A program made the translations under genes and the position numbers. From Ruania halotolerans (GTDB taxonomy: Bacteria > Actinomycetota > Actinomycetes > Actinomycetales > Beutenbergiaceae): a stretch of 64,000 nt of DNA. The notes below the pieces were generated by a model. It was not told where the DNA came from. It saw nothing but the letters and a program-made list of their open reading frames with translations, and made no database searches. The stretch spans positions 1,054,001-1,118,000 of the forward strand of contig NZ_CP088017.1 in NCBI RefSeq assembly GCF_021049285.1. Direction: 5' to 3'. Below, in pieces: positions 28,761-31,582 of this stretch (position 1 is its first letter; each line of letters opens with the position of its first letter).

Positions 28761-29462
28761 TCAGCGGCGGGCGTCCTGAGGAGGATCGGTGGCCACGTCG
28801 TGGGGCACCGGTGCAGCGGGTTGCCCCTGCTGGGCGGAGATGGCGTCGAGCACCCGGCTGTCGGTGAACAGACCGTGCGTGTAGACCTCGAGGGTGGGGA
28901 GCATCGAGGAGGCCATGAACTCGCGCATCATCGCGCCCGGATCCACCTGGCGCTCGCGCCCGAGCTGGATCTGCAGCAGCATCGCACCGAGGCCCGAGTA
29001 GGTGAGGTAGCGAGCTCGCGCCTCCGGGTCCCGGCTCGGGCGAATCATGCCGGTGCGCTCCCCTTCGGCGAGGTATTCGACGGCATCGGAGATCATGTGC
29101 TCGACGAGGTCGCGGGCTAGGGGGCCGCCGTCGATGAGGCTGGTGAGGATGTACCCGAGGATGGGTGCGTACTGCTCCATGTGGGCGAACTGCTCGAGCA
29201 GGGTACGGGTGTCCCCGGCGGCCACCGAGGCTGACTTCGCCTCGTGCACCACGGCGCGGACATGTTCGTCGCAGGCGCGGCGCAGACCGTCCTTGGAGCC
29301 GTAGTGCCGGATCACCAGTGCGGCGCTGACGCCGGCGTCGGAGGCGATCTCGCGCAGCCCGACGCCGAAGCCGTCCACGCCGAACCGGCGCACGGCAGCG
29401 GCACGGATCCGCTCCGGTGTGCTGCCCGGCTGCGGAGTCTCGTTCGACGTCTGGTCCACCAT
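28761..29462 (-). CDS. TetR-family regulator of the adjacent ABC exporter
   Basis: 233 aa. The DNA-binding domain is near residues 14-62: TPERIRAAAVRRFGVDGF, LREIASDAGVSAALVIRHYGSK. The C-terminal ligand-binding domain contains MEQYAPILGYILTSLIDGGP and a TetR_C-type EHMISDAVEYLAEG segment. It is the first gene of a minus-strand unit with the ATPase 89 nt downstream. A perfect TGTAAACA-GT-TGTTTACA palindrome sits 8 nt before its ATG, so it probably represses its own unit and responds to an exported compound. Confidence 0.92.
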   Translation of the reverse strand: MVDQTSNETPQPGSTPERIRAAAVRRFGVDGFGVGLREIASDAGVSAALVIRHYGSKDGLRRACDEHVRAVVHEAKSASVAAGDTRTLLEQFAHMEQYAPILGYILTSLIDGGPLARDLVEHMISDAVEYLAEGERTGMIRPSRDPEARARYLTYSGLGAMLLQIQLGRERQVDPGAMMREFMASSMLPTLEVYTHGLFTDSRVLDAISAQQGQPAAPVPHDVATDPPQDARR

Positions 29463-29470
29463 GTGACCAG

Positions 29471-29488
29471 TGTAAACAGTTGTTTACA
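29471..29488 (-). promoter_or_regulatory. TetR operator of the drug-exporter unit
   Basis: TGTAAACA-GT-TGTTTACA, an 18-bp perfect palindrome immediately upstream of the tetR start at 29462. A binding site here would block transcription initiation. It is notably AT-rich for this genome. Confidence 0.7.
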
Positions 29489-29493
29489 GCTAG

Positions 29494-29527
29494 GGCAACT
29501 GAGAGACGTAGGCAACTGAGAGACGTA
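29494..29527. repeat. 17-bp tandem duplication
   Basis: GGCAACTGAGAGACGTA occurs twice without a gap (29494-29510 and 29511-29527), between the TetR operator and the hairpin repeat at 29541-29590. Perfect identity suggests a recent duplication. Confidence 0.9.
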
Positions 29528-29540
29528 TCCGCGCGACGCG

Positions 29541-29590
29541 TTGCCTCGATCTGTCGGCGCGCATGCAGTTCAGGCGACAGATTGGGGCAA
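29541..29590. repeat. 50-bp hairpin repeat, copy at the 3' end of the AbiEi-like gene
   Basis: TTGCCTCGATCTGTCG, 18-nt loop, CGACAGATTGGGGCAA. The arms are inverted repeats with two non-Watson-Crick positions, and CGCG/CGCG extend the stem. It spans the stop codon of the gene ending at 29570. The same 16-18-16 geometry recurs at 30350-30399. Confidence 0.8.
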
Positions 29591-30259
29591 CGCGCGGGCC
29601 GATCTGGTCGGTGGTCGCCAGCCTCGGCCGATCAAGGTCCGTTGGATCTGGTCGATCACCGCGGGGAGGTTTCTGCGGTAGTGGGACCGGTTCACCCGGA
29701 TCACCAGCCACCCGGCTCCGGCCAGACCGTTGAGACGGTCGATGTCGTGGCTGTACTGACGGTCAGCGGTTGCCAGGAATCGTCCCTCATCATCGATGAT
29801 CTCCCACCCGTCACCGAGAATCACGAGCTCACGAAGGGAAAGGGAGTCGGCGAGGTGCAGCCACACGCTCACGGGGGATGCGATGCGTAGCCCACGCACG
29901 TTGCGGACTTGTGTATAGCTGCTGTTGAGTCGATGGCCGCGGATGCGCGTTCCGCGGGGTGCGCGCGCTGGAGCGAGCACTGCCATGTCAAGTCGCTCGT
30001 CGGCACGTATCGGCGTGGGCAACCCGTGCAAGCGAGCCGCGGTGAGATGCGAGACGAAGGTGTCCGGCCGGGGCACCTGGTAGGCCAGGCATCGCTCGCG
30101 GAGGCTGAGCTCGTCCGGCGCAGGGATGCGCAGTCCGTGGAACGGGGCGGCGAGATCGTCGCGGCGTAGTCGCTCGATATGGACTCCCGAATCGAGCGCG
30201 TGACGCACCGTGAACATGGCATGGCGGAGGTCGTCGGGAAGCGGGCGCGGATTCGACAT
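29570..30259 (-). CDS. AbiEi-antitoxin / DUF559-like protein, internally shortened
   Basis: About 229 aa. The N-terminal half resembles actinobacterial proteins annotated as AbiEi-family antitoxin-like or DUF559 proteins: HLTAARLHGLPTPI near residue 75, then SPVSVWLHLADSLSLRELVILGD near 130-152. The C-terminal end reads YSHDIDRLNGLAGAGWLVIRV, which matches the end of the DUF559/Vsr-like nuclease fold. About 100 residues normally between these two blocks appear missing, joined in frame at GDGWEIIDDEGRF, so nuclease activity is unlikely. ATG 30259 (MSNPRPLPDDL) fits the family; GTG 30334 is the alternative. Neither has a clear ribosome site. It is flanked by two matching 50-bp hairpins. Function unknown. 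Confidence 0.65.
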   Translation of the reverse strand: MSNPRPLPDDLRHAMFTVRHALDSGVHIERLRRDDLAAPFHGLRIPAPDELSLRERCLAYQVPRPDTFVSHLTAARLHGLPTPIRADERLDMAVLAPARAPRGTRIRGHRLNSSYTQVRNVRGLRIASPVSVWLHLADSLSLRELVILGDGWEIIDDEGRFLATADRQYSHDIDRLNGLAGAGWLVIRVNRSHYRRNLPAVIDQIQRTLIGRGWRPPTRSARALPQSVA

Positions 30260-30349
30260 TCGCTCAGCATCGCGCTCAGTCCGCAACCGTTGCAGCGGCG
30301 ATGGCGCGAGCTGTGGATGCAGCACCCTGTCCACAAGACACCCGACGGG

Positions 30350-30399
30350 TTGCCCCCATCTGTCGCCACCGCCCTCGGGGAGGCGACAGAACGAGGCAA
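30350..30399. repeat. 50-bp hairpin repeat, copy upstream of the AbiEi-like gene
   Basis: TTGCCCCCATCTGTCG, 18-nt loop, CGACAGAACGAGGCAA. The left arm matches the complement of the right arm of the copy at 29541-29590, and vice versa, so all four arms derive from one motif (TTGCCYCNATCTGTCG). Same loop length and same orientation as the other copy. Confidence 0.8.
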
Positions 30400-30445
30400 T
30401 ACGCGGGCTGGGGTGGTGAGGATATGAGCGCCCTGCTCGGGGCGG

Positions 30446-31582
30446 CTAGGTGACGAGGGTCCCGACCGCGTCGGCCACCAGGTCCGCGGCACCGGTCAAC
30501 TCCACCTCGTCCACATCCGCCCCCGCCGTGAACCGCACGGACGTCTGCGCCACCTCAGGAGCGATCCCGCAGGCGAGCAGCACGTGTGAGGGTTCGTCGG
30601 ATCCGGCCGCACAGGCCGATCCACTCGAGCTGATCACCCCGCGCCGCTCCAACTCCACCAGCACAGCCTCACCGGACACCCCCGGGAAGCAGAAGGAGGC
30701 GTGATTCGGCAGGCGAGACTCCGGCGCCCCGGTGAGCACCGCCGTCGGGACCAGCTCGAGCACGCGCGCGGTGAATGCCGCCATCGCCTCTCCGACCCGC
30801 TCCACCTGCGCCGCCCGTGCGGATTCGGCGAGACTCAGCGCCACACCGAGCGCCACCGCTGCCGGCACGTTCTCCGTACCGGACCGCCGGTTCCGCTCCT
30901 GTCCGCCACCGTGCAGCACTGGCTCCACCGGCAACCGGCCACGGAGAAACACGGCCCCGATGCCCTTCCCCGCGCCCACCTTGTGACCGGAGAGGGAGAG
31001 GGCATCGACCCCGAGCGCCCCGACGTCGAGACTGAGCCAGCCCGCCGCCTGCACCGCATCGGTATGCACCAATGCCCCCGCCGCGTGGGCCACCTCGGCG
31101 AGCGCCGCAATGTCCTGTACCGTGCCGATCTCGTTGTTCGCCAGCGCAATGCTCACCAGCGTGCTGTCCTCCCGCAGCACCGCTCGCAACGCCTCGGGGG
31201 TCACGACTCCTTCGCCGGTCACCGCCGCCATGGACACCTCGAACCCGTGCACCCGGCGCAGATAGTCCACCGACTCCAGGACCGCCTCGTGCTCGGTCGC
31301 CGCCGTCACCAGGTGCCGCCCACGCGGGTTCGCCAGTGCGAGCCCTTTGATGGCCACGTTGTCGCCCTCGGTGCCGCCGGAGGTGAACGTCACCTCGCTC
31401 GCCCGGCACCCCAGCACCGCTGCCACCTGACGGCGCGCGCCCCGCAACCCAGCCGCCGCCCGCTCACCGAGCGTGTGGTGACTGGACGGGTTCCCGAACT
31501 CACCCGTCAGGTAGGGCCACATGGCTTCCAGCGCCTCTCGGCGCATCGCCGTGGTCGCCGCCGCATCGAGGTAGAGCGTCAC
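30446..31582 (-). CDS. cysteine desulfurase (NifS/IscS family)
   Basis: PLP-dependent enzyme that takes sulfur from cysteine for Fe-S clusters; 378 aa. LYLDAAATTAMRREALEAM at the N-terminus, TSGGTEGDNVAIKG near residue 70, and the PLP Lys in SLSGHKVGAGKGIG near 200. The persulfide Cys sits in SSSGSACAAGSDEPSHVL near residue 325. It is the last gene of the nadABC operon, overlapping nadC by 4 nt. Because NadA needs a [4Fe-4S] cluster, dedicated supply to NadA is the likely role; this is inference from context. Confidence 0.93.
   Translation of the reverse strand: MTLYLDAAATTAMRREALEAMWPYLTGEFGNPSSHHTLGERAAAGLRGARRQVAAVLGCRASEVTFTSGGTEGDNVAIKGLALANPRGRHLVTAATEHEAVLESVDYLRRVHGFEVSMAAVTGEGVVTPEALRAVLREDSTLVSIALANNEIGTVQDIAALAEVAHAAGALVHTDAVQAAGWLSLDVGALGVDALSLSGHKVGAGKGIGAVFLRGRLPVEPVLHGGGQERNRRSGTENVPAAVALGVALSLAESARAAQVERVGEAMAAFTARVLELVPTAVLTGAPESRLPNHASFCFPGVSGEAVLVELERRGVISSSGSACAAGSDEPSHVLLACGIAPEVAQTSVRFTAGADVDEVELTGAADLVADAVGTLVT

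Follow-up and report, generated by a model that had tools for sequence, protein, structure and literature searches.

Two hairpins of the same build flank a shortened, AbiEi/DUF559-like gene in Ruania halotolerans, an arrangement that recalls the REP hairpins found around RAYT genes and raises the question of whether this protein and this repeat form one unit, and whether such a unit could be mobile or domesticated. Both ideas had been put forward in a first-pass annotation of the stretch of DNA analysed here, 64,000 nucleotides of contig NZ_CP088017.1 (positions 1,054,001 to 1,118,000), which we refer to as the window. The features of the locus are collected in Table 1.

Table 1. Gene and repeat features around the hairpin-flanked locus, in window coordinates
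Feature	Position	Strand	Remarks
TetR-family gene	28761..29462	-	neighbour on one side; DNA matches beside the same place in other Ruania genomes
Two tandem 17-mers GGCAACTGAGAGACGTA	29494..29527	+	directly outside hairpin A; copies perfect
Hairpin A	29541..29590	no strand	16-18-16; over the stop codon; codes for the gene's C-terminal LPQSVA tail
Shortened AbiEi-N / DUF559 (Vsr-like) gene	29570..30259	-	229 aa when read from the conserved ATG, with the ORF open as far as 30334; nuclease core mostly lost
Hairpin B	30350..30399	no strand	16-18-16; ahead of the conserved start codon
NifS-like cysteine desulfurase (Aminotran_5)	30446..31582	-	neighbour on the other side

The gene and its two hairpins

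The geometry proposed for the hairpins, a 16-nt arm, an 18-nt loop and a second 16-nt arm, was confirmed for 29541-29590 and 30350-30399, and so were their positions relative to the gene: hairpin A spans the stop codon (29570-29572) and hairpin B, placed by the annotation about 90 bp before the start, starts 91 bp upstream of the conserved ATG (30259) and 16 bp ahead of the first possible start (30334). The claim that all four arms follow one consensus was right for three of them, which fit TTGCCYCNATCTGTCG exactly, while the arm at 30384-30399 has one mismatch, and the remark that both hairpins point the same way means little, since the elements are near-palindromes. A gapped pattern of the hairpin matched three times in the window (twice at hairpin A, once per strand, and once at hairpin B) versus none in 100 shuffles. 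When folded as single strands and compared with shuffled sequences, hairpin A gave a z of -6.3, with a stem that can be extended to 20 nt at 90% complementarity (29537-29556 / 29575-29594), and hairpin B, unpaired in mid-stem, a z of -4.0. Between 29300 and 30600 there was no intrinsic terminator (a GC hairpin followed by a T-run), no match in a simple sigma-70 promoter scan and no Rfam match at E≤1. The 15-mer core of GGCAACTGAGAGACGTA was absent from every fetched locus except those covering the 29494-29527 place.

The gene had been described as shortened, and comparison with the homologue of another Ruania genome (G003) bears this out, as residues 153-216 and 231-251 are missing. Both deletions, of 64 and 21 residues, are in frame, and together they remove most of the nuclease core, including E197, R201, E241, G244 and H247; the aspartates at 150, 230 and 257 are retained. 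The window protein scores 14.0 against the DUF559 family (PF04480), below the Pfam cut-off of 20.6; a PDB search by sequence gave no match at E≤1. The gene is under purifying selection in Ruania (dN/dS 0.23-0.40), and the values of the window copy against its relatives (0.23-0.29) are about as low as those of full-length pairs (0.24-0.40), so that the deletions are either recent or the remaining protein is still in use. Because most of the nuclease core has been lost, the window copy is probably a degenerate or domesticated member of its family, at most still able to bind. Among the window neighbours scanned, no gene for an AbiEii (DUF1814) toxin adjoins it, the adjacent genes being those of the TetR and Aminotran_5 proteins.

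Distribution of the hairpin within Ruania

A search of the window genome and its relatives for the hairpin pattern, proposed as a check in the first-pass annotation, found copies dispersed in both. The window genome (4.27 Mb, one contig) holds nine copies of the exact geometry at up to three mismatches, and copies of this type are present in seven of the eight Ruania genomes (9 in G000, 10 in G001, 5 in G002, 11 in G003, 2 in G004, 4 in G006 and 3 in G007, with none in G005). The hairpin was found in none of 31 genomes of other genera, the reversed control pattern likewise giving zero, and the distribution obtained from the pattern is in agreement with that from a covariance model of 22 copies. 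Three records turned up in an exact pattern scan of genome_contigs: two come from Ruania, and the third, whose loop is shorter, looks like a chance match. Homologues of the window protein (E≤0.001) are encoded in seven of the eight Ruania genomes, G005 lacking both homologue and hairpin.

In all four Ruania genomes that have the window-gene subfamily, the gene is bracketed by a pair of hairpins. Its neighbours in G003 and G001 are those of the window, a TetR gene on one side and a NifS-like gene on the other; in G007 the TetR side is on the gene's contig and the NifS-like match on another. At the three other loci (L080, L081 and L082) one hairpin again covers the stop codon, starting 29 bp short of the gene's low end, just as in the window, and coding for a C-terminal tail resembling LPRSVA, and the upstream hairpin lies 97-119 bp ahead of the start. 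Sites that lack the element exist as well, since in G002 and G005 neither a family gene nor a hairpin is present between the TetR and NifS-like genes, the interval being filled by unrelated genes.

More distant Ruania members of the family have repeats of their own. A palindrome around CCGTTGCCCA brackets the paralogue L085, GGTGCC..GTCG palindromes in arrays surround L083/L084, and L087-L090 lie between inverted repeats with GGGCC ends that reach 163 nt and are 85% complementary. One solo site is occupied by the window type of hairpin in G000, G001, G003 and G006 and, at the same place in G004, by that genome's own GGTGCC type, which indicates that repeats can change in step with no obvious new insertion.

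Several of these observations count against a mobile unit. The gene positions are old, being common to several species; window-type hairpins are found in G002, G004 and G006 (5, 2 and 4 copies) without a gene of the window subfamily, and we read them as relics; and the window-type stem shows no conservation of pairing in its middle part. Selection on RNA structure alone was considered for these stems and rejected: covariation exceeded that of shuffled alignments, of which one in 500 reached the same value, but the bases of columns 12 and 14-16 frequently fail to pair (in 6-13 of the 22 copies), from which it follows that the letters of the mid-stem matter more than their pairing. Inspected by eye, the consensus of the 22 copies contains neither GTAG nor a terminal CGTC, the tags that REP repeats of RAYT genes have at one end; the repeats of some other family genes contain GTAG internally.

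Some further loci were noted in passing. At about 3400-3810 of L098 (G004), at least four GGTGCC-type palindromes follow one another in a row and resemble REP clusters. Another family member, with an overlapping called ORF that has a strong bracket repeat, lies at 459-1574 of L121 (G003), some 2 kb from a solo window-type hairpin. L086 (G004) and L099 (G000) hold family-like copies with internal stop codons, probably decaying, near a gene that by eye looks like rpsD. Finally, some solo hairpins (L091, 3549-3598; L123; L133) apparently lie within called genes or in a variable region that separates conserved blocks.

Bracketing of homologous genes in other genera

A profile of ten proteins found homologues in at least 92 of the 119 genomes of the order. 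For the bracketing test we used 90 genes, corresponding to the 30 loci returned by the profile search and 60 places chosen among the matches listed, the latter picked by score and genome variety with their flanks still unseen; L086 and L099 were left out of every count. The region from -450 to +30 of each gene was aligned locally with that from 60 before to 400 after its stop codon, with cut-offs at SW scores of 15 and 18. Repeats bracketed 65 of the 90 genes at the higher cut-off and 74 at the lower one (29 genera). When upstream and downstream regions of different loci were paired (2000 pairings), 3% reached 15 and 0.35% reached 18. Among 231 neighbouring genes in the fetched loci, 17 reached 15 and two reached 18, one of which overlaps another family member, and only one of 43 other window genes reached 18. 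The set includes four Ruania loci that had partly been seen beforehand, three of them bracketed; once these are removed, 62 of 86 genes remain bracketed. At least one bracketed gene was found in 25 of the 29 genera (24 of 28 without Ruania). These figures support the claim that the DUF559-type protein and the hairpin repeat belong to one unit; the 25 genes without a bracket at a score of at least 18 weigh against it.

The repeats are private to each locus: in pairings among the 65 bracketed genes, a score of 18 was reached in none of 3944 across genera and in 4 of 216 within a genus. Their orientation was both direct and inverted (palindromic) in 41 cases, inverted only in nine and direct only in 15. 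In 85 genes (the four Ruania loci and one short locus having been left out), palindromes scoring at least 20 were present upstream of 50, downstream of 44 and on both sides of 35, with none in shuffled controls and two in gene bodies. Chance and GC composition are thus ruled out as the cause of the bracketing by the mismatched-pair, neighbour-gene, shuffle and gene-body controls.

An unrelated transposase acting in trans could also have spread the hairpins in the manner of a MITE, the nuclease gene being a mere passenger between two copies. Solo elements do look like MITEs, but the repeats are private to each of many paralogues and change along with the version of the gene, and bracketing affects 65 of 90 genes of one family versus two of 231 others, all of which makes this explanation very improbable.

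DUF559 and MTES_1575, the latter described as having a Vsr REase fold (PMC3710099), are the leading Pfam matches of nine homologues. DUF559 is above its cut-off in five (L080-L084), the MTES_1575 matches are all below theirs, and two of the nine have no Pfam match. None of the scans of these nine and of the window protein matched a Y1 (HUH tyrosine) transposase. Weak PADLOC matches to AbiEi were obtained in two of six proteins (4e-6 and 1.5e-5) and none in the other four. Residues of the nuclease family are conserved across the 90 proteins (E197 and R201 in all 90, D230 in 87, E241 in 81, G244, H247 and D257 in 89 each), the G003 homologue having E instead of D at 230, and the acidic and His residues among them are presumably catalytic.

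Solo repeats, gene-less sites and the nature of the proposed unit

Dispersal of a private palindrome was also found outside Ruania. The palindrome of the G093 gene occurs at 15 sites in that genome (27 arm matches at up to three mismatches), two of which form the bracket, and at none in 14 congeners. One of the solo sites lies between convergent genes, and in G138, G139 and G144, where both flanks align, no such palindrome is present. At the orthologous place G140 has a different palindrome, built of CGAGATAGAGA boxes. The prediction that these boxes would bracket a family gene was borne out by L328, one of the five genes of G140, and L326, one of those of G144, is bracketed likewise (at most one mismatch in both cases), with the boxes direct upstream and inverted downstream. 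Among 28 further loci of this genus, the new ones among the places listed by a family search, 27 reached 18; L330 and L332 are weak and not palindromic. At L326 and L328, and by eye also at L318, L323-L325 and L334, all of this one genus, an 11-nt box recurs in arrays, direct on the upstream and inverted on the downstream side of the nuclease gene, with a spacing of about 20-22 bp (positions listed for L326 and L328), or about two turns of DNA.

The repeats might instead be regulatory sites, bound by the AbiEi-type domain for autoregulation, with the other copies constituting a regulon or terminators and without any mobility. AbiEi and Rv2827c bind to inverted repeats located in the promoters of their own genes, according to the available part of PMC7319586, and this reading would agree with the AbiEi-like N-terminus suggested by the weak PADLOC matches, with the regular spacing of the box arrays in several elements and with the position of three of the four G093 solo copies inspected, just behind the stop codons of convergent genes. 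However, a second copy is located at the gene's stop codon or beyond it, and the search of 29300-30600 had found no T-tract that would make it a terminator. Operators would moreover favour divergent intergenic regions. From 40 solo window-type copies (covariance-model matches, the weakest left out) 26 are outside and 14 overlap called genes, as defined by a crude gene caller, and of those 26, 12 are between convergent and one between divergent genes, whereas these loci contain 104 intergenic gaps of 60 bp or more, 33 convergent and 23 divergent. The 14 overlaps, for their part, count against the proposed unit. Lineage-restricted dispersal and the existence of empty sites also fit spreading better, and we consider a purely regulatory role unlikely.

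The orthologous place of the G093 gene was compared in 15 genomes. Nine carry the gene, always between two palindromes, and in six of these alleles the two palindromes on either side of the gene are each other's best match; in G147, G031 and G145 the palindrome of another species outscores the own partner. In G144 and G147 the gene is in the reversed orientation. As to the gene-less alleles, one palindrome of the clade's type is present in G140 and one of diverged sequence in G143; that of G139 lies beside an assembly gap, and G138, G137 and G146 show only unrelated short hairpins. No target-site duplication was obvious by eye at a few sites.

Selfish homing could produce such a pattern if the nuclease cut chromosomes with a single palindrome and repair copied palindrome, gene and palindrome into them, later loss by recombination leaving one palindrome. 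The two palindromes in nine of nine gene-bearing alleles, the single one of the clade's type in the only clean gene-less allele (G140) and the opposite orientation of the gene in G144 and G147 are in line with it. Nevertheless, occupied alleles retain two intact target sites, so that a homing nuclease would attack the very locus that encodes it. Such a palindrome is lacking from three of the gene-less alleles, and homing does not by itself account for the 13 solo copies elsewhere in G093. This mechanism therefore seems to us rather improbable.

The interpretation we favour is that the window locus is one member of a widespread unit, made up of a single gene, whose product would combine a DNA-binding domain of AbiEi type with a Vsr-like (DUF559/MTES_1575) nuclease, and of two bracketing palindromes recognised by the protein, and on balance we think it probable. 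Its best reading is a REPtron-like unit in which a Vsr-type nuclease replaces the tyrosine transposase. The N-terminal domain would bind boxes within the palindrome, which the promoter binding of true AbiEi proteins (PMC7319586, in the part available) makes plausible, and the nuclease would nick or cut at that place, perhaps during extrusion of the hairpin on single-stranded DNA. The cut palindrome might then be copied or joined into other, mostly intergenic, places, giving rise to a lineage-specific family of solo palindromes, with the gene kept in few copies and mainly vertically inherited, like RAYT genes. Binding, cutting and mobilisation of the palindromes by the nuclease protein are thus what we infer for the family. 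As for the annotation's suggestion of a mobile or domesticated unit, the second term suits the degenerate window copy, and the first belongs with these inferred activities.

The comparison with REPtrons and RAYTs is based on the accessible portions of PMC3116915 and PMC3733652. There too the flanking palindromes are dispersed, lineage-specific and mostly vertically inherited, and solo copies are often at 3' ends between convergent genes. In contrast, RAYTs are HUH tyrosine transposases, an enzyme unrelated to the AbiEi-N plus Vsr-like DUF559 nuclease, and the unit described here is therefore not a member of that family; its repeats are also longer (about 50-65 bp versus 20-40 bp for REP), fewer in the genomes counted and entirely different between most paralogues. 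TIRtrons (TIRYT genes), in what PMC3733652 offers on them, likewise have a gene between terminal inverted repeats able to form repeat families, with another enzyme; here, full palindromes or 11-nt box arrays often form the ends. The type IV toxin-antitoxin system AbiE shares inverted repeats near the promoter and perhaps an AbiEi-like N-terminal region, as far as the accessible text of PMC7319586 goes, but no AbiEii is beside the window gene, there is an extra nuclease domain, and the repeats are on both sides and dispersed. DUF559/MTES_1575 Vsr-like REase proteins are of the same nuclease family, and no association with repeats is mentioned for them in the available part of PMC3710099.

Searches of openly licensed PMC papers gave no account of palindromes bracketing DUF559 or AbiEi genes or dispersed along with them, which is weak evidence of absence, and the gene-plus-repeat unit looks undescribed so far. 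REP-like palindromes are known for their link with HUH transposases, and according to PMC3733652 the CGTC families of REP have no dedicated enzyme. A broader proposal, which we hold with evenly divided confidence, is that AbiEi-fused Vsr-type (DUF559) nucleases constitute a second, independent class of REP-type mobilising enzymes across Actinomycetes, each of which would recognise, cut and seed its own palindrome, enzyme and repeats changing together. If true, an unrelated nuclease family with palindromes of its own in 25 of the 29 genera examined would mean that gene-plus-palindrome units arose at least twice; orphan AbiEi-like and DUF559 genes would gain a function, and many natural pairs of enzyme and DNA site with jointly changed specificity would be at hand.

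Members of the family are present on plasmids as well. One scan of viral_contigs with the family profile gave 17 pattern matches, none of them confirmed, and phages gave one partial match. Four plasmid records matched, one of them over 35% coverage, and the homologues of the other three, from Arthrobacter and 32-33% identical over 95% of the query, were examined and are all bracketed. The palindrome of one of them (L368) is at three places only in its plasmid, perhaps all at the gene, an observation that again speaks against mobility. At two solo places of plasmid palindromes that were inspected there is no family gene within 1.2 kb. In Arthrobacter sp. StoSoilB13 the palindromes of the other two homologues, found in no other of 72,556 plasmid records, occupy 21+14 and 6+4 BLAST places on its two replicons, where a palindromic place may count once per strand.
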